Notes under the pieces: model-generated | What the model was told of the DNA's origin: nothing | What the model saw: only the letters and a program-made list of their open reading frames with translations | The model's database searches: none | Translations under genes and position numbers: made by a program | Virus record (IMG/VR): IMGVR_UViG_3300046170_000016 | Coordinates: 1-28,449 of that record | DNA length: 28,449 bases | Reading direction: 5' to 3' (one strand) | Source of the DNA: a virus | Part shown: positions 7,044 through 27,394 of the stretch, piece by piece | How positions within the stretch are numbered: position 1 is the stretch's first letter | How the letters are laid out: each line of letters begins with the position of its first letter

Positions 7044-8360
7044 TTAGCGGTAGAACTTAGGAACGAACCCCAAAACTTCTGAGACTTGCTTAATTACTTC
7101 TAGCTCAATGTCAATAGCTTCTTGTTCTGTTTGAGCGTTTGCTGTTTTCTCTTCTATGTCTCTACGAGCCTTTTGCATTATAGAAGCGTACTTCTGTTTT
7201 TTATCTTCAAAACCAACCATTGTTGCGTCTAGTCCTGCGTTTATCTGAGAAGCCAAATGCCTATCAGCAACCATCGCCATGTCGCTAGACGCCGCCAAAA
7301 TTCTTTCTTCTGCCTGTAAATACTTAAGTATTTCTTCTGAGGAGGCGTTAGCCGCAGGAAAACCTTGAGAGAATATTCTGACATCAGTGTCTGAAGCCAC
7401 ACCGGGAGGAAGTGAGTTAATAATGTCTGTGTTTCTCGTTCTCAAGAAAGCTGTCTTAGCTTCTTCTTCAGCATCTCTTAAGCCAGCAACGTCTAAAACA
7501 GAAGTCCTCCAATCACTAAGAATACCAGTGGTTTTTTGAGTAGTAACAAGTTCCTGCTGTAGCTGTCTGTTCCTCGCTAAACCTATAGAAGATTTTGTAG
7601 ATTCTGCTGAGATTTCGTTGTTTCTTTTTTCTACATTAGAACCTACTGATCCTCTTCCTTCAGACTCAACAACTTCCTGTAGCTTAGAATAATCAATACT
7701 TCCGTCTGCTCCTACAGCGTCTTGAATTGAGACAGCAGTGTACTTACCTGTTTTTGCTAATTCAAAAGCTCTATCAATTGTTTTATCTGATGAATCTTCT
7801 TTAAAAGGAACAGTCTTTTGTAAAACTAGGTTTCCGTCTTCATCTCGTTTAAAAAACTGGGAACCCGGTGTTCCTTGAATGATTTCAGGCTTTTCTCCTT
7901 TTGCCAAATCAACGCCTGCGTTGTACGCCGACATAATATCTGCTTGCGTACCACCTTGTGCCAAAACAGACGAAACAGCGCTACTTAAATCAGGCTTTTT
8001 ATCGCTCTGCAAAGGAACTCCACGTGCTGCCGCTTGTGTAATCGCAGTTAGTCCACCCTGTAAACCTCTCTGTTGGCCTGCGGTTTCTTTAGCAGTAGCC
8101 TGAGTAGCAGCAGTAGTAAACGCTTGAGCAGCGTCTGTGTTACCTTTGGCGCGATACTCATTGGCAAGCTGCTGTAGCTTCGCAGGGTTATTCGCGTGTT
8201 GCTTTAGCAACTCCTGTATCTCTGCTTGGCTTCTCTGTGTAGCCTGCCGTGTCATCATACGACCCGGAGCACCGCCAAGACCGCGAGCAGCACTGGTTAA
8301 CTCTTTCTGGTACGTCGGATTCAGAAGACCCGCCAGCATCTGTTGTGAAAATCTAGCCAT
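7044..8360 (-). CDS. Helical structural protein, candidate internal virion protein
   Basis: The 438-residue protein is rich in Ala, Gln and Glu and lacks recognisable catalytic motifs. The N-terminus (MARFSQQMLAGLLNPTYQKEL) and the QELLKQHANNPAKLQQLANEYRAK region suggest amphipathic helices. The C-terminal third (EDKKQKYASIMQKARRDIEEK) is a likely coiled coil, and it ends EVLGFVPKFYR. A strong AGGAGG site overlaps the end of the preceding gene. It lies between two other large Ala/Gln-rich proteins, in the position where podoviruses keep internal core or ejection proteins. The specific function is unknown. Confidence 0.72.
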   Translation of the reverse strand: MARFSQQMLAGLLNPTYQKELTSAARGLGGAPGRMMTRQATQRSQAEIQELLKQHANNPAKLQQLANEYRAKGNTDAAQAFTTAATQATAKETAGQQRGLQGGLTAITQAAARGVPLQSDKKPDLSSAVSSVLAQGGTQADIMSAYNAGVDLAKGEKPEIIQGTPGSQFFKRDEDGNLVLQKTVPFKEDSSDKTIDRAFELAKTGKYTAVSIQDAVGADGSIDYSKLQEVVESEGRGSVGSNVEKRNNEISAESTKSSIGLARNRQLQQELVTTQKTTGILSDWRTSVLDVAGLRDAEEEAKTAFLRTRNTDIINSLPPGVASDTDVRIFSQGFPAANASSEEILKYLQAEERILAASSDMAMVADRHLASQINAGLDATMVGFEDKKQKYASIMQKARRDIEEKTANAQTEQEAIDIELEVIKQVSEVLGFVPKFYR

Positions 8361-8365
8361 CTTGG

Positions 8366-9430
8366 TTATCCTCCTGTTACTGCAGTTTGTAGCATATCAA
8401 AAAAGTCAAAGTCTTTGTTTGCGCCGAATACACCACTCAGCAAACCAGATCCTATGCTACCCAACAGATTAGCCTGAGCTTGCTCTGCTACCAACCTAGC
8501 CTCAAGACCACTCATCATTGTCTCACCGTATTGACCAGCACCAAACAACTGTCCCTGCTGTTGCATCTGCTGATAAGGCATCATAGCCTGCTGTAGCTGC
8601 ATCATCTGAGTCTGTGGCATGTACGCAGCGCCCATAGAACCAACACCTAAGTTTTGCTGTGCCGCCAGTTGTTGCAAGTCTGCCTGAGACAACTGACTAC
8701 CCATGCCTGTAAACATCTGTGCCTGCTGTGCCAACTGTGATTGTTCTGCCTGTGCTTGGCCCATAGCCTGTAGCATAGCTGAGTTTCTAGCTTCTGCTTG
8801 TGCTTTACCAAACGCTAGTTGCTCTGGTGTCCCACCAAACTGTGCAGTCTGTACACCTAAGCGTCCTTGTGCAGCCAAACGTTCTTCCATTGCCTGTGCC
8901 TGTCGTTGCTCCTCAGGAGACTGTGCAGCCCTAATGCGCCCGTAGATGTCTTGCTCGCGTTGAGCCATGTCAGTGTCGCGCAAGTCTGTCATCATGCCGC
9001 CACCTAATTTAAACGCTTGTTCTGCGGCTGTTCGTCCTCGTTGTTGACCGTAAGGAGTACCAGCAAGCTGAGTTTGAGCACGAGTCAGCATAGACTGTTG
9101 GAACGCTTTCTCTTCGTCAGAAAGATCCATGCTTGTACCTACGCCAGTAAACGCACCAGTTTCAGGATCAAACTGAGGAGTTGCACCAAAGCTACCACCC
9201 ATTGTAGACGCTACAGTAAACGGCTTAAACTGAGACATTCCTACGGCTTGTTGTGCTAACCCGTAAGCACCGGGAACGTACATTTGTTCATTTGTACGAG
9301 GATCAGTAAAGAAAGTTCCTGCTAAAGACTGTTCACCAATCTTACTCAGCCGGTCTATAGCGTCTTTAGTTAGCAGACCGCCGCCAACAGCACCGCCAAT
9401 TCCTAGTAGATTTGTTAACCATTCTGGCAT
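8366..9430 (-). CDS. Gln/Ala-rich virion protein, candidate internal virion protein
   Basis: The 354-residue protein begins with a hydrophobic glycine-rich stretch (LTNLLGIGGAVGGGLLTKDAI, residues 5-25) that could insert in a membrane. A YVPGAYGLAQQAVG region follows, then a long segment of Gln, Ala and Met (about 200-310, for example QAEQSQLAQQAQMFTGMG and QMMQLQQAMMPYQQMQQQG). It ends with another hydrophobic Gly-rich segment (LLGSIGSGLLSGVFGANKD). Hydrophobic ends with a Gln-rich middle are common in phage pilot/ejection proteins. The start ATG shares its A with the TGA of the preceding gene. The final Gly-Gly codons contain the ribosome binding site of the next gene. Confidence 0.72.
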   Translation of the reverse strand: MPEWLTNLLGIGGAVGGGLLTKDAIDRLSKIGEQSLAGTFFTDPRTNEQMYVPGAYGLAQQAVGMSQFKPFTVASTMGGSFGATPQFDPETGAFTGVGTSMDLSDEEKAFQQSMLTRAQTQLAGTPYGQQRGRTAAEQAFKLGGGMMTDLRDTDMAQREQDIYGRIRAAQSPEEQRQAQAMEERLAAQGRLGVQTAQFGGTPEQLAFGKAQAEARNSAMLQAMGQAQAEQSQLAQQAQMFTGMGSQLSQADLQQLAAQQNLGVGSMGAAYMPQTQMMQLQQAMMPYQQMQQQGQLFGAGQYGETMMSGLEARLVAEQAQANLLGSIGSGLLSGVFGANKDFDFFDMLQTAVTGG

Positions 9431-9663
9431 CAGTAAGTCCCTCCGTCAATCGTCCCTGTAGACAGAGTTCCTGTAAACGTCAAGTTAGGTATAGTAACAG
9501 TACCTGTAAACGTCGGTGAAGCTGTGTTCGCCTTAGTTGCAACTGCAACCGCAATAGCGTCAAACTCTGTGTTAAATTCAGTGCCTTGAATAATCTTGCC
9601 AGCATCTCCAGAAGGCAAACTATCCTTAGCAGCAAAGTTAGTTGTCTTTGTATAGTTGCTCAT
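9430..9663 (-). CDS. Short fibre-like structural protein, 77 residues
   Basis: The sequence MSNYTKTTNFAAKDSLPSGD.. followed by KIIQGTEFNTEFDAIAVAVATKAN and ASPTFTGTVTIPNLTFTG is typical of N-terminal modules of phage tail fibres and short virion proteins. Here the module stands alone. It ends TIDGGTY, the same terminal peptide as the fibre encoded at 18598. It overlaps the nozzle-like gene by four bases (ATGA) and the next gene by one. It may be an attachment collar for a fibre, or a remnant of one. Function is not established. Confidence 0.75.
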   Translation of the reverse strand: MSNYTKTTNFAAKDSLPSGDAGKIIQGTEFNTEFDAIAVAVATKANTASPTFTGTVTIPNLTFTGTLSTGTIDGGTY

Positions 9664-11225
9664 AGTGTTTTACCCATTAGTGCTAATACGTTAATTTCTT
9701 GGAGAGATAAAGCAAAACCGTTTATTTCTGACTCAAGACCAATAGTAATAATAGTGCCAGAGCCTGTAGTGTTAACAGGAGGTCTGGTTGTTGTTGCTCC
9801 TCCGGTGAACTCAGCAACTGTGTACTCTGAAGCTGCTTCGTTAAAGAAGAAGGGAGTCTGGTTACCTACCGTAAACTCTTGTGTACTGTACGATGTACCA
9901 AAGTCATACGCCCACTTCATAAACACAGTAGCGCTGTTAGCACCAACCAATGTTGGACGTATTTTCTTTAAGAACTTAAGTTTAGACGGATCACCAAACG
10001 TCAATCCGGGGCTGTAGTACCTAAAGCGGTAACTGGAAGTCCTAATCGTACCTGAGTCGTTGTACTCATCTGCGTACCCTGCGTACTCACCTACGCCGTC
10101 CACAGTACCAACAAGAAGCGTACCATCGTTCTTTCTCTCGTAAGACTTAAACGGTGCAGAGGTCCAACGTGTGACTCTGTAAGCGTTATTCTCTAGTTTA
10201 CCCTTGAGATCAAAGCAGTACGTAGTTGACCTGTCTGGAAACGTAATGAGGTAAAAGGAGTTCTCAGGGCTGTACACAGATGCCGTTGGTGCAGTTCGTG
10301 TTTCAATTAAATTAATAATCTCAGACTTTATGTTTACACTCAAATCAGACAGAGGTAGTGACTTTTCTTGTATAGTCCTACCAAAACTTCTCAGACCATT
10401 CTGAGACATAAACAACACATCAGTACCTATGTGCTGTACAGAGTTTCTACAGATGCACCCAACTCCAGCCACAGTATCAGCCAGTGCCATCATTGCTGGA
10501 CTCACGGCGTTAGCGTACACGAGGATGCTGTGCTTGCCTAAGATTAGCAGAGCGTTGTTGTGAGCAACCAGTGCCCGTACTTCGTCGTACCCGTCAGGCC
10601 AAGCCTTAGATACATCTATAGAACCACTGGAGCCACCAGTGAAGTCTGTTCCTATCAGCAGGTCAGACCAGTATATAGTCTGTGTGTCTGCTGCGTTATC
10701 TACGATCCACAGTCTACCGTAAGCTGCTAGAGCCTCGTGGCAGTAGAAGTTACTATTAGTAGAACTACCTGTTGCTGTGCCAAACGTCCTAAGTCCTGTC
10801 GCGTTGTCATACACCAGAGGCTCTTGTCCACGCTGAAAGAAGTACGCCTTATCGTTAAAGTTTACTATCTTCCAGTTGTCTGCAGAGATTGTGTACGAAC
10901 CCGGAGTAATGTCAGTAAGCGTGTCATCAGGATTAGTCGTCTGTGCAGTCTTAAATATCTTGTTGTTACCCGTGACAAAGACTTCCTCGTTACCTGCGTC
11001 ATCGTAAAAGTGGTGCAGCTTAACAGCGTAATCAGTGCCCAGAGGTGTGTTAACAGCAGTTAACAAGTCTACACCCTTACGTGCAGCAATACGTCCACGC
11101 TTGTCAATCACAGCGTTATCAGCGATTTCAGCAAAAGACGGATCCTGTGCAATCGGAGAGTCTTCTGTGTTGACTCCTTTAAACGCAGGAGCAACTAAGT
11201 TAATACTTTGTAGCGGCTGTGCCAT
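9660..11225 (-). CDS. Tail nozzle / tail tubular protein B-like virion protein
   Basis: The 521-residue protein is almost entirely beta-strand. The opening (FKGVNTEDSPIAQDPSFAEI then DNAVIDKRGRIAARKGVDLL) parallels the start of T7 gp12 and P22 gp10-type nozzle proteins, where a loop announcing a list of positions is followed by a propeller. Repeated blade-like segments follow, such as EEVFVTGNNKIFKT, NWKIVNFNDKAYFFQRGQEPLVYDN, RLWIVDNAADTQTIYWSDLL and ALLILGKHSILVYANA. Such proteins form the distal tail tube of podoviruses. The adaptor gene lies directly upstream, the usual order. An AGGAGC site precedes the ATG. Assignment is by pattern and context, not by a database match. Confidence 0.7.
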   Translation of the reverse strand: MAQPLQSINLVAPAFKGVNTEDSPIAQDPSFAEIADNAVIDKRGRIAARKGVDLLTAVNTPLGTDYAVKLHHFYDDAGNEEVFVTGNNKIFKTAQTTNPDDTLTDITPGSYTISADNWKIVNFNDKAYFFQRGQEPLVYDNATGLRTFGTATGSSTNSNFYCHEALAAYGRLWIVDNAADTQTIYWSDLLIGTDFTGGSSGSIDVSKAWPDGYDEVRALVAHNNALLILGKHSILVYANAVSPAMMALADTVAGVGCICRNSVQHIGTDVLFMSQNGLRSFGRTIQEKSLPLSDLSVNIKSEIINLIETRTAPTASVYSPENSFYLITFPDRSTTYCFDLKGKLENNAYRVTRWTSAPFKSYERKNDGTLLVGTVDGVGEYAGYADEYNDSGTIRTSSYRFRYYSPGLTFGDPSKLKFLKKIRPTLVGANSATVFMKWAYDFGTSYSTQEFTVGNQTPFFFNEAASEYTVAEFTGGATTTRPPVNTTGSGTIITIGLESEINGFALSLQEINVLALMGKTL

Positions 11226-11236
11226 ACGTCAGGCTC

Positions 11237-11884
11237 CTAGGGAGTGTACCAGATGGTTTCTTCAGGATGCTTCTGTGCGTCCAGAGCAATCGCGTCAGAC
11301 AAAAACTTATCAGCAATACCAAAGTACTCAGGTGCTGATGTACCGCCTGTCTCGCCACGCTCACGAGCTAACAGAGCTATCGCTAGGTGTATCACGGGTT
11401 GACTAGGTATACTCAGTACATCTGTATCAGCGCTTAACTCAGCGTTCCTAAGAGTACAGTTAAATCTCAAGCTGTACACACCGTCCGGCTTAGGATAAAT
11501 GTCTACCTGAGTGTCACCACTAGCATCAACGCCGTTGTACGTGTAGTACTCAGGTGAGCCGCTGGGTGGTGATTGGTTCAAGTACTTATCGTTAAACCAG
11601 TGCTGAGTCTGGTACTGCATAAAGATGTTTGAGGTATCATTGATTACATCTAGCACCTTAATTTTATTTTGTGACCCAGTAAGTACGTAGTTAAAAATAT
11701 CAGCAGACGTAGTTACCGTAAGGGTAGTCCTGAGTGCTGACCAATCCCAAGCGTCCTCTACCACCTTTTTAGCGTCGTTTACAAAATCACCCGCCAGTTT
11801 ACTGTAGGTTGTATCTTGTACACTAGACACCTCGTCTTCACGTAAGCGCCTGAGGACGTTGTTTACTAAGTTTAAATATGTCAT
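11237..11884 (-). CDS. Head-tail adaptor / tail tubular protein A-like protein
   Basis: I chose the ATG at 11884, one base after the preceding stop, giving 215 residues that start MTYLNLVNNVLRRLREDEV. The longer frame (start 11902) overlaps the upstream gene. The N-terminal helix pair, the KLAGDFVNDAKKVVEDAWDWS helix, the TTLTVTTSADIFNYVL strands and the C-terminal helix LAIALLARERGE match the gp11 (T7)/gp4 (P22) adaptor pattern. Such proteins sit below the portal and start the tail. The next gene is nozzle-like, in accordance with the usual order. Confidence 0.82.
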   Translation of the reverse strand: MTYLNLVNNVLRRLREDEVSSVQDTTYSKLAGDFVNDAKKVVEDAWDWSALRTTLTVTTSADIFNYVLTGSQNKIKVLDVINDTSNIFMQYQTQHWFNDKYLNQSPPSGSPEYYTYNGVDASGDTQVDIYPKPDGVYSLRFNCTLRNAELSADTDVLSIPSQPVIHLAIALLARERGETGGTSAPEYFGIADKFLSDAIALDAQKHPEETIWYTP

Positions 11885-11885
11885 C

Positions 11886-14800
11886 TTATGCCATGCCCTC
11901 AAACAAACTTCGTTTAATTATGTTGTCTAGTTCAGCCATGTAGTCCTTCTGTGGTGGTGCTGGAGGCTCTGGTACAGCCTGTTGTGTGTAACTTATGCCA
12001 GCTAAGAACGGATTAAACATACCGCCACCACCGCCACCACCACCGCCACCGCCACCGCCACCGCCTGTGGGAGGAGTTACTGGAGGTTCGCCGGGAGTAA
12101 GACAGAAACCTTCTTCGCTCATTACCGCACCTTCAGGACACGTAGTACAAGCAGGAAAGTCAGTAGCTCCGTTATCGCACTCTTCTGTAGTACTAGGACA
12201 CATTCCGTCTTCGTACTCAAGAACACTGGTTCCATCAGGACAAGTATCACACCCACTTTCTTCTGTAGCTCCGTTGTCACAAACAGTAGTATCTTGTACA
12301 CAAAGCAGCGTTTCTGGGTCTTTTGAAAAACCGGGCTTACATTCACAAGGCCCGTCTTGTCCATCGTTGACAGCGTTAGGGTCGCTACAGGTTTCTGGAG
12401 GAAGACCAACTGGAATACAGGCTTTACCGTCCTTGCTTACTGTAAAAGTGTCAGGACAAACACACGGTCCTAGTTCTCCGTTATTAGTTGCATTTTCGTC
12501 GTCACACGACTCCTGTGGTGCTTGTTTTGATCCTACACATTTACCGAAAGTTGTGCTGTTTTCGTCGTTATCCAGTACGTAGTCCTGTTTACACTCACAG
12601 CCACCTTGTCCATCTGATTGAGAGTTAGGGTCTTCCTGTGTACACGGATCTGTAGTGTCTATGTCTTTACACGGCGCATCGTCTGGTCCGTAGCCGGGAA
12701 CATTTTGTGCAGCACATATATCTACTATAGAAGTACAAACGTCGTACCCTTCTGGCTTGGCATAATCACGCTTACAAGGACCACAGCCACCGTCGTCACC
12801 TGCAGGCGGGTCTGCGTTTTCATCGTTACACACTAACTCAGGAGCAGGTGTCCAGTACATAGAACTGGAGAGGTCGTCTGCACACGGGTCATAGGTAATT
12901 GAATCACCGTTGTAGAAAAAAGCACCATCTTGGTCAGTATCTTCAGGTAAATACTCAGGTTCATTACCGTTTGTGCATTGACCACCGCTGACATCAATAC
13001 AGAAACCTTCTGTGCTGTACTGTCCTTGCTGTGTAGTTGTAGAGTCTCCGGGATATTTACTAGGCTCCGCAAAACAAACTTGACCTACTGTTACACAAGC
13101 TGCACCAGCGATGCCGCCTCTGCGTACTTGATTTGGGTCGGGACACTCATCGTTGCCACCATCAGGACCGGGCACTTCAACAGGTGGCTGAGTTTGATCG
13201 CAAGGATCGTAGGTATAGTTTTTTCCGTCACGAGGGTCTGTAAAGGCTCCATCTTTGTCTTCGTCAAATACAACATAGAAAGGCTCAGCACCGCTGGGAC
13301 ACAGGTCGTCATCGTCGCCATCGTCGTCACCACCGTCACTGCCACCTTCGCCCTCGCAGACTCCATCTTCAGGTATTTTAGTTCCGTCGTTGCAGTGAGT
13401 ATCTTTGCAGTTAGCCCCCCACCACTTTTGTTGATCTTGAAGACCAAAAGTTAAAGTACCTTGTGGATAACCGTCTTCACACTTGATACCGTCTGGTCCT
13501 GTGGGTGTTCCACTACCATATTCATCACAGTTAGTGCCATCTGCGTTTTCTTTTTCAGTTACTCCGTCTTGACAAAAACCAAACTCAGGTGGTTCAGGAA
13601 TACATTGAAGTTCATCACCTACAAACTGATAGGTACCTGCTGTTCCGTCTTCTAAATTACAAGGGTCACCTTCCTTGACTACAGGCTCTGGGCCGGGACA
13701 GTTAGTACCTTCTGCGTCTTCTTTTTTAGTTAACTCATCATCGCACATTCCGTAATCTGCCACGTATTCAGCACAGTTAGTTCCAGCAGTATTTTCTTTC
13801 TTAGTTACATTGTCTTCACAATAGCCAAACTCAGCGTATTCAGCACAGTTAGTACCTTCTGCGTCTTCTTTTTTAGTTACACCATCTTCACAGTACTCTT
13901 CATCGGCTGTTATACCAATAGTTCCATCACCGTCAATGTCTGCCTCAAATAGTTTTTCTAGCTCTTTGAGTATCTTATCGCCGTACTGAGAACCAATAAT
14001 AATAGCTCTCATCCAAGGTGGAAGTCCCGGTTGAGTTGGGTCAGCACCGCCAATGACGCCTTCAAGAATACCTTTAATTTTACCGGCGCAAGCCGCTGGA
14101 TCTTTAACACAATCAAGAGTTTCTAAGGCTTTGTCTACTATCCCTTGTACTGCTTCTGTTGTAGCGTCAACTATGTCACCAGTGCCGTCAAGTATGCCTT
14201 GAGTAATAATACCGGCAATGTCCCTGTTTTCCATGCAGTAAGAGGCTGTGTTAGCAACGCCGTCTCCGTCATCGTCCTTTTTCATGCACTCTCTTAACTG
14301 ATCCCTAGCGGCATCGTTAAAAGGCCCAGTAATTTTGTCCCATATTTCTCCAATTGTTGGAAGACTCATAATCCCCGGAAGAGGTAACCACGCAGGTAAA
14401 CCCGGAATTTGAAGACCTTTAAATATTACTTGTATGTGTCTACCAAAGTCTTCCCATAAATCGTTAATTGCCTTAGGGTCAACACAGTTAGTTGTAACTG
14501 TAGTGCTACATATGTCAACTTTTACGCCAATATCGCTGTCACCTAAAATAGCCCTGTCTATAATTTGTCGTGGGTTTACAAAGCTAAAAGAGTTTTGTAT
14601 AAATGTGTTGTCAGCTATTCCGTAATTTTCGTAGCGTTCAAAAAGTTCTTGTGCCCCAGAAGAAGGATCTTCAGAAGATAAAATTTCTTCAAACTCGTCA
14701 ATAAAACTGTTGTACTGCCACTCATTAAACTCTGTGGATTCTGTGTTACCGTTGCTATCATAGCCGTATACAGTATGTGCATTACCATCAGCATCTATAG

Positions 14801-15026
14801 CATAGAGGTTGTTAAAGCCATCACCGTTTAAATCAGAAGAGGCCCAATCAACAGTACCTTCTGGAAGATCACCAAAAAGATGTCTGAGATAGGCTTCTAG
14901 TGTTTTGTATTCTGGATTAGACGATCCTTGAGGACCAAGTGGATTAAAACCGGCAGCAAGGTACTGCTGAACAAAACTCCAAAAATCAAAGTCTGGATGA
15001 TGTGGATTTACTGTTATCCTAATCAC
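11886..15026 (-). CDS. Large Cys-rich, Ca-binding-repeat virion or surface protein, with poly-Gly tract
   Basis: The 1046-residue protein starts with GTG at 15026. Its first 320 residues contain calcium-loop-like motifs (DLNGDGFNNLYAIDADGNAH, DDDGDGV, ADIDGDGTIG). From about residue 375 there is a run of Cys-containing repeats of roughly 20 residues, CEDGVTKKEDAEGTNC and variants with VTKKENTAGTNC, LTKKEDAEGTNC and VTEKENADGTNC. More irregular Cys/Pro/Asp-rich EGF-like segments follow, then 15 consecutive glycines near the end, then MFNPFLAG and a short amphipathic tail. It is flanked by tail genes, so it may be a virion surface or adhesion component. No named family is claimed. It is unusually large and disulfide-capable for a phage. 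Confidence 0.78.
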   Translation of the reverse strand: MIRITVNPHHPDFDFWSFVQQYLAAGFNPLGPQGSSNPEYKTLEAYLRHLFGDLPEGTVDWASSDLNGDGFNNLYAIDADGNAHTVYGYDSNGNTESTEFNEWQYNSFIDEFEEILSSEDPSSGAQELFERYENYGIADNTFIQNSFSFVNPRQIIDRAILGDSDIGVKVDICSTTVTTNCVDPKAINDLWEDFGRHIQVIFKGLQIPGLPAWLPLPGIMSLPTIGEIWDKITGPFNDAARDQLRECMKKDDDGDGVANTASYCMENRDIAGIITQGILDGTGDIVDATTEAVQGIVDKALETLDCVKDPAACAGKIKGILEGVIGGADPTQPGLPPWMRAIIIGSQYGDKILKELEKLFEADIDGDGTIGITADEEYCEDGVTKKEDAEGTNCAEYAEFGYCEDNVTKKENTAGTNCAEYVADYGMCDDELTKKEDAEGTNCPGPEPVVKEGDPCNLEDGTAGTYQFVGDELQCIPEPPEFGFCQDGVTEKENADGTNCDEYGSGTPTGPDGIKCEDGYPQGTLTFGLQDQQKWWGANCKDTHCNDGTKIPEDGVCEGEGGSDGGDDDGDDDDLCPSGAEPFYVVFDEDKDGAFTDPRDGKNYTYDPCDQTQPPVEVPGPDGGNDECPDPNQVRRGGIAGAACVTVGQVCFAEPSKYPGDSTTTQQGQYSTEGFCIDVSGGQCTNGNEPEYLPEDTDQDGAFFYNGDSITYDPCADDLSSSMYWTPAPELVCNDENADPPAGDDGGCGPCKRDYAKPEGYDVCTSIVDICAAQNVPGYGPDDAPCKDIDTTDPCTQEDPNSQSDGQGGCECKQDYVLDNDENSTTFGKCVGSKQAPQESCDDENATNNGELGPCVCPDTFTVSKDGKACIPVGLPPETCSDPNAVNDGQDGPCECKPGFSKDPETLLCVQDTTVCDNGATEESGCDTCPDGTSVLEYEDGMCPSTTEECDNGATDFPACTTCPEGAVMSEEGFCLTPGEPPVTPPTGGGGGGGGGGGGGGGMFNPFLAGISYTQQAVPEPPAPPQKDYMAELDNIIKRSLFEGMA
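12021..12065 (-). repeat. Poly-glycine codon run (15 GGN codons)
   Basis: Fifteen consecutive Gly codons, alternating GGT and GGC, lie in the large Cys-rich gene. On the plus strand they read as a run of acc and gcc triplets. The codon mix means it is not a pure trinucleotide repeat, but it is long enough for replication slippage. Confidence 0.9.
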
Positions 15027-15028
15027 AG

Positions 15029-15406
15029 CTACTTACCACCCTTTAGCTGCATCAGCTTGTCAGCACCACGTATGCCAAAGCTGGCTGTGACTGCAACGTA
15101 CAAAAGATATTGATACCACTCAGGTAGCTTCCCTAGCTCTGCAAAGGCAATGCCTACGCGACCAATGATATCAAGATCGTTCATACCTACGCCCCACATA
15201 ATAGCTATCACAGGTGCACTCAGGACTACTGTGAACCACTCGTCTTTCCACGAGGATGCACTAGCCTGTGCCATGTGCTGTTCCCAAGATGCTGTGTTCT
15301 GTATTACTTGCATCTTAGCTACGTGTTTTGCTTGTGATTGCTCGTGACGATTGCTCATCCAAGTCTTAGCGAGTCCAGCAATAGGACTAATGAGTGCTTG
15401 CCACAC
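15029..15406 (-). CDS. Holin-like membrane protein (GTA_holin_3TM-like)
   Basis: The 125-residue protein starts with GTG immediately after the preceding stop, with AGAGGT upstream. The N-terminal half is polar and helical. Two hydrophobic segments follow: WFTVVLSAPVIAIMWGVGM (about residues 57-75) and WYQYLLYVAVTASFGIRGA (about 97-115). The arrangement SWKDEWF...PEWYQ...GIRGADKL resembles phage and gene-transfer-agent holins of the three-TM family. A holin would permeabilise the inner membrane to release endolysin. Neighbouring genes encode two more small membrane proteins. Assignment is moderate; a structural membrane protein remains possible. Confidence 0.55.
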   Translation of the reverse strand: MWQALISPIAGLAKTWMSNRHEQSQAKHVAKMQVIQNTASWEQHMAQASASSWKDEWFTVVLSAPVIAIMWGVGMNDLDIIGRVGIAFAELGKLPEWYQYLLYVAVTASFGIRGADKLMQLKGGK

Positions 15407-25987: not shown

Positions 25988-26392
25988 CTAGTTACAAACC
26001 CCAGCGTCTTCTGAGTTATCAAACTGATTGTCACCACAGCCGTACTTACCGTCGTTGTCTGTGTCACAGGCCCGTTGCCACGAAATCATGTCGAACGATA
26101 AACCTTCGCTCCACGGCACGTAAGTCTTACACCACTGATGTGATCCTACTGTGTAGTCGTCTGATGCCACGGGTACGTAGTCACGCTTAGTCCACGGCTT
26201 CTGTACACGAAAGAACGTGTCTTTGTTTTTCATGAGCTGTCTCTTGAACAGAGAGCTACTAGGCGTACTGATGTAGATTTCTTGGTTTTCCTCTAGGGTG
26301 TACGTAGATCCGTCGTCGTAGTTGATAACGGTGCTGCCGTAGACAATAGGGGCTACTAGTAAGGCAAAGATAGTAAACAGGTGTTTAGTCAT
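25988..26392 (-). CDS. Exported Cys-rich protein with Ca-loop-like C-terminus
   Basis: The 134-residue protein has a classical signal peptide (MTKHLFTIFALLVAPIVYG with likely cleavage before STV). The mature part is beta-rich (INYDDGSTYTLEENQEIYIS) and has four cysteines. A C-terminal DTDNDGKYGCGDNQFDNSED segment resembles a calcium-binding loop like those in exported adhesins or nucleases. It would act in the periplasm of the infected cell or be carried on the virion. No enzyme active site is recognised. It lies between glutaredoxin and large terminase and overlaps glutaredoxin by four bases. Confidence 0.7.
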   Translation of the reverse strand: MTKHLFTIFALLVAPIVYGSTVINYDDGSTYTLEENQEIYISTPSSSLFKRQLMKNKDTFFRVQKPWTKRDYVPVASDDYTVGSHQWCKTYVPWSEGLSFDMISWQRACDTDNDGKYGCGDNQFDNSEDAGVCN

Positions 26393-27004: not shown

Positions 27005-27346
27005 CTAGTAAACCCAGATAACGGGTACAGTTCCCCGTGTATCAACGTGAATAAAGTCACCAGCGACCCCTATGCCAGTAAATCCCATGGATAGAGCTTC
27101 TCTTATTAACGTGTACCGGTGTGCAGCGTTTGTTATTTTTATGTCTGCTGCTATGCCTTGCGCGTGGGTTCCCGGTACATCCTTTTTAGCTTCTATAGGG
27201 TGGCTAGGGCTTCTGTAGCCGCTGGTGATAACAAAAGGGAAACCGCAGTTGTCCCTGAGTTGGTCTAACTTGAGTAAAAACTCGTCCTCCATACGGTTCT
27301 CACCAGTATGTTGACAGTTAAACTCTTCTTTAGTGAAGTATTTCAA
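27005..27346 (-). CDS. M15 zinc peptidase, probable endolysin (D,D-carboxypeptidase fold)
   Basis: The zinc ligands of the peptidase M15_3 family are present: H in GTHAQGIAADI with D seven residues on, and H in GDFIHVDTRG. The SGYRSPSHP motif is also intact. Such proteins cleave peptidoglycan peptide bridges at lysis. I set the start at the TTG at 27346, which gives (M)KYFTKEEFNCQ, the family-typical beginning, with AGAGGA six bases upstream. In-frame GTG (27364) and TTG (27373) starts would add 6 or 9 residues. It is separated from the holin-like cluster at 15029-16050 by the whole head module. Confidence 0.87.
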   Translation of the reverse strand: MKYFTKEEFNCQHTGENRMEDEFLLKLDQLRDNCGFPFVITSGYRSPSHPIEAKKDVPGTHAQGIAADIKITNAAHRYTLIREALSMGFTGIGVAGDFIHVDTRGTVPVIWVY

Positions 27347-27394
27347 GAATCTTCCTCTTGACACTCTTGACAACCGCAGTCACAGCCTGAAAGC

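Follow-up and report, generated by a model that had tools for sequence, protein, structure and literature searches.

The question raised by this locus is which function a 1046-residue, Cys-rich protein might have between a small membrane protein and the tail adaptor of a phage. The window, i.e. the whole stretch of 28,449 nucleotides that was analysed, is a 28.4-kb IMG/VR virus record of an uncultured marine short-tailed phage and encodes a terminase, a PF19821 capsid protein, an SU10-type adaptor, an S74 fibre, a B12-type RNR and endonuclease I; its portal shares only 21–26% identity with those of HMO-2011-type and other phages. The gene (11886–15026, minus strand, GTG start) is located, as an earlier note on this DNA had described, between a membrane/lysis gene and the adaptor. 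Its upstream boundary is gene H (15029–15406, minus), encoding a small, holin-like membrane protein (phrog_2524), and its downstream boundary is gene A (11237–11884, minus), encoding the SU10-type adaptor (PF24175, SU10_adaptor). The GTG lies 2 nt past the stop codon of H and the ATG of the adaptor gene 1 nt past the stop codon of the gene itself, which places the gene in a structural operon; like podovirus ejection proteins, the protein is thus encoded with the structural module. The position between H and A is termed the slot in the following. Elsewhere in the window, a peptidase M15 gene (27005–27373, minus) possibly encodes an endolysin, and a 134-aa protein adjoining the terminase (25988–26392, minus) appears to have a signal peptide, contains several Cys together with a DTDNDGKYGCGD loop and gave no match in Pfam.

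The composition that the earlier note had described was confirmed. The slot protein contains 54 Cys (5.2%), four CxDxVTKKE-type repeats with two Cys each, five DxDxDG loops (0.39 expected from shuffled sequences, p 0.0005) and a run of 15 Gly, and it is strongly acidic (202 D+E vs 56 K+R). It begins with a variable head (residues 1–165; 14532–15026, minus), for which many different heads occur in the relatives and of which residues 41–130 fold at a pLDDT of about 77–94 in the AF2 model. A core domain common to many slot proteins follows (residues 166–372; 13911–14531, minus), whose Cys are gained or lost in sets when slot proteins are compared. The adjacent array of Cys-rich modules (residues 376–975; 12102–13901, minus) holds 48 of the 54 Cys, including the repeats at residues 379–394 (13845–13892), 403–418 (13773–13820), 428–443 (13698–13745) and 485–500 (13527–13574; all minus). 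The Gly15 linker (residues 988–1002; 12021–12065, minus) leads to a C-terminal tail of 44 aa (MFNPFLAGISYTQQ...PQKDYMAELDNIIKRSLFEGMA; 11889–12020, minus) with a helix predicted at residues 1029–1045. As a whole, the AlphaFold model is a chain of separate beads (mean pLDDT 64, pTM 0.32), of which the N-terminal one is confident and others are small and Cys-rich, with disorder around the Gly run.

Homology searches provided no named homologue of the slot protein in Pfam, PHROGs, PDB sequences or fold searches. Homology to an unrelated, known enzyme family, which would have spoken against the earlier note, was not found. The sole PHROGs match was phrog_37193 (E 0.0026), a family of unknown function; known ejection proteins were not matched in Pfam, PHROGs or PDB sequences, and a viral fold search gave no usable match. 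Relatives were found in IMG/VR contigs. Tblastn with the slot protein, adaptor and I1 (see below) against named phages gave no matches or only short S74 matches, and strict patterns for the core and the CxxC module detected no bacterial homologues in GTDB contigs. In the cultured relatives that were inspected, the slot was not seen at this position. A description of such a protein was not found among open-licence papers. The EGF-like segments that had been proposed are only loosely supported. The spacing C-x13-C-x-C-x12-C occurs in part of the Cys array, and the best PDB folds are the EGF-module proteins Pfs25, LRP2 and LDLR, so that the array resembles EGF/LDLR-type disulfide modules in spacing and top folds; these matches are, however, non-significant (Foldseek E 0.03–1), Pfam detected nothing in the window protein, and cEGF was weak in 3 of 59 relatives and below the cut-off in L106. 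Matches to the chitin-binding domain CBM_14 in L073 and L106 were discarded, as they are summed half-domains of which no stretch passes alone, and HYR, Collagen and CPW_WPC matches in relatives were set aside as sums of repeats or composition.

Among the IMG/VR contigs, the slot between H and the adaptor is occupied by an ORF in all 289 loci with upstream sequence. An apparent absence in 23 further loci was rejected, as every one of these stops at or near the adaptor, i.e. at a contig end. The slot proteins are hypervariable mosaics of widely varying length: the protein of contig L015 matches that of the window to 90% across one module and to a far lower degree elsewhere, and some alleles possess almost no Cys and consist of low-complexity repeats. 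While the N-terminus is variable, the C-terminus occurs in two main classes. In L073, L082 and L112 two consecutive genes fill the slot, and both carry a class-Y-like tail in L073 and L082. A TonB-box-like motif, LEEVVVTA(K/T), is located near the N-terminus of 4 of 136 distinct slot proteins (L125, L031, L033 and L042) and is otherwise absent from the 99,060 slot residues; mimicry of TonB-dependent receptors is possible. The near-identical phages G001 and G002 differ strongly in the structural genes for fibres, portal C-terminus, slot and ejection proteins. The C-terminal ca. 100 residues of the portal differ among otherwise near-identical phages (G002 27489–29537 and its counterparts in G001 and G003); as a partner of the tail class they were rejected, since they also differ between the two class-Y phages G002 and G003.

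The number of Cys is even in 86 of 86 distinct complete Cys-rich slot proteins, across 28 different totals, whereby these sequences are related (67 remain after reduction of redundancy) and do not represent 86 independent trials. Even counts were also obtained for the 48 Cys-poor slot proteins, whereas odd counts are frequent among the adaptor and tail-tube proteins that these phages encode. Cys in pairs are characteristic of disulfide-bonded proteins, and the even counts are strong indirect evidence that the Cys of the slot proteins probably form disulfides. The earlier suggestion that this protein would require disulfide formation or an extracellular location is thereby supported, and so is an oxidizing setting. 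Zn-binding Cys4 sites alone do not account for the pattern, as 40 of the 86 totals are not multiples of four and the repeats hold only two Cys each; mixed-ligand Zn sites are possible.

Downstream of the adaptor gene, the gene for a protein of the tail-tube/head-closure type (TB; phrog_5107, phrog_3287, phrog_578; 9660–11225, minus) is followed by I1 (8366–9430, minus) and I2. Relatives of I1 match phrog_4287 (DNA ejection protein; E 4e-11 and 6e-11) and phrog_6121, and the matching stretches start well before the S74 end. I1 of the window itself showed no direct match to an ejection family, and its AF2 model, of low confidence (pLDDT 60), matched no fold; it is predicted to be an ejection protein through its family. 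About 22 of 139 I1 proteins, nearly all of class b (see below), end in a Peptidase_S74-like chaperone domain (e.g. L007:4585–5577).

The C-terminal ca. 45 aa of the slot proteins belong to class F (...FPITDFLAG...) or class Y (...QKDYMAEL... and allies, including the window), and only a few to neither; tail-HMM matches below E 0.1 were confined to slot ORFs. I1 likewise possesses an N-terminus of two kinds, a and b, and its class corresponds to that of the slot tail in 137 of 139 deduplicated contigs (exceptions L251 and L072). In the window, the class-a segment precedes the motif FKPFTV (9230–9430, minus), and the first 45 aa of I2 (MARFSQQMLAGLLNPTYQ...; 8226–8360, minus) switch together with the slot tail as well. 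The I1 classes were assigned by a position-based rule, and unsupervised clustering agrees: rule-free clusters of the first 70 aa of I1 contained 76 F and 1 Y, and 59 Y and 1 F (135 of 137 agreeing), and those of the first 40 aa of I2 contained 52 Y, and 63 F and 1 Y (115 of 116 agreeing). In pairs of contigs with a TB identity of at least 95%, tail and I1 both differed in 170 cases, neither in 252 and only one in 5. L212 and L019, for example, have opposite tails and opposite I1 classes with identical TB and 97–98% identical adaptors; between L156 and L075, tail and I1 differ, while 77% of the slot body is shared, along with 98.6% of A and 99.6% of TB. Such near-identical A and TB proteins across opposite classes indicate that the intervening genes do not force the joint switch. 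Many class-Y and some class-F tails contain FxP(F/Y), and class-a I1 proteins contain F(K/Q/R)PFT with an invariant F..P.T; perhaps these represent a shared docking motif.

These observations suggest that the slot protein is a part of the virion which aids the passage of the phage through the host envelope. We consider it somewhat more probable than the contrary that it is a virion component whose C-terminal tail anchors it to the DNA-ejection complex and whose variable body is directed towards the host envelope. The tail would dock, via the poly-Gly linker, on the N-terminal segments of I1 and I2, and the hypervariable, disulfide-bonded modules would face the cell envelope of the host during infection. 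Most likely, the protein would be stored beside the ejection proteins or travel with them, and it would be oxidized on reaching the periplasm or the cell surface. Such strong acidity as that of the slot protein would be unexpected in a protein packaged with DNA and is a mild argument for a location outside the head, whereas the link to the ejection proteins argues for a location inside. Further points against this reading are the two exceptions L251 and L072, the negative result for I1 of the window in the ejection families, and the more frequent pairing of F tails with Cys-rich bodies.

Known systems are similar in part. Podovirus ejection proteins comprise gp14, gp15 and gp16 of T7 and gp7, gp20 and gp16 of P22 (PMC8954989). 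The order and sizes of I1, I2 and I3, their position after the adaptor and tail-tube genes and their mosaic divergence are similar to those operons (PMC8954989), I1 relatives match a DNA-ejection profile, and the slot tail switches together with I1 and I2. Unlike podovirus ejection proteins, the slot protein is encoded ahead of the adaptor, is Cys-rich and has no match to an ejection family. The crAssphage cargo protein gp45 shows that a virion can store a large protein and extrude it: gp45, whose position was determined by cryo-EM and mass spectrometry, is anchored at one region and leaves through the tail (PMC10172136). It is considered here as a model of how the slot protein, known from its sequence, might work, and no homology is claimed. 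In marine phages, hypervariable host-recognition genes lie in metaviromic islands, among whose genes putative internal virion proteins are listed (PMC3909814), and the slot gene likewise varies in a marine phage genome whose other parts are conserved. The tail fibres of these islands are variable at the C-terminus, whereas the C-terminus of the slot protein is the constrained, two-class part; a Cys-rich protein is not mentioned in the main text of PMC3909814.

A different explanation, already contained in the earlier note, is an external adhesin or fibre-like protein on the exterior of the tail, which binds host or particle surfaces outside the ejection complex. The slot gene is as hypervariable as a tail fibre gene, which makes a host-facing role plausible; profiles of tail fibres and collagen-like proteins are matched by alleles with GTT/GPS repeats, partly through composition, and an exterior position agrees with disulfides and acidic modules. 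S74 forms the end of some I1 relatives and of the fibre of the window, but the slot protein of the window lacks S74 as well as any known fibre anchor domain. Phage fibres are usually anchored by their N-terminus. A conserved, tail-binding N-terminus with a variable distal part was not found in the slot protein, in which the constrained part lies at the opposite end. Moreover, a free-standing adhesin leaves the joint switch of tail, I1 and I2 unexplained, and we therefore regard this explanation as rather unlikely.

The association itself might also be due to linkage only, if two old haplotypes persisted and A and TB were homogenized between them by gene conversion without any functional coupling. 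Indeed, nearest-neighbour linkage to the tail class is still 0.82 for A and 0.75 for TB, so hitch-hiking may be behind a part of the association, and gene conversion of A and TB could mimic a part of the pattern. However, the N-termini of I1 and I2, although separated from the tail by A and TB, are linked to its class more tightly than these (0.98; slot C-terminal 45 aa 0.99), and beyond this peak the values drop to 0.71–0.72. Selection for matching predicts two peaks separated by a dip, which genome distance does not. Within I1, the middle (0.93) and C-terminal (0.97) parts also give high nearest-neighbour values and show no class split in broad clusters. On the other side, the slot N-terminus reaches 0.67 and H 0.48, which equals chance, and crossovers to the left are thus common. 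Mapped onto the TB tree, both traits show 30 changes each; among 17 independent pairs, 15.7 changed together and none in opposite direction (p 3e-5), and the adaptor tree concurs with 11.5 of 12 independent pairs. About 30 joint switches are difficult to reconcile with linkage only, which we consider improbable.

An assembly factor or chaperone that loads the ejection proteins through its tail and does not face the host would account for the matching of tail, I1 and I2, but leaves the extreme variability of the body and the modules with paired Cys unexplained and is very improbable. Hardly probable at all is a late-made protein outside the virion, associated with lysis or, as the earlier note had considered, released at lysis as a decoy: the gene comes after the holin-like gene H, but no signal peptide is evident in the N-terminal sequence, H is unlinked to the tail class, and a tail matched to predicted virion proteins fits poorly.

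Anchorage to the ejection complex is therefore the reading that we favour. Only tentatively, and with considerable doubt, can it be extended to a fourth, disulfide-rich and hypervariable protein of the ejection complex, which would be carried in reduced form and oxidized in the host envelope, and which would be held by a short docking code of two classes, formed by its C-terminal tail and the N-termini of two ejection proteins; the bodies would be freely exchangeable, as long as the code matches. Ejection complexes of podoviruses are mostly poorly known, and the ca. 30 natural joint switches mark three short segments which are probably in mutual contact, so that docking becomes directly testable. 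If this proves true, disulfide-rich, eukaryote-like modular proteins would serve phage entry in uncultured marine phages.
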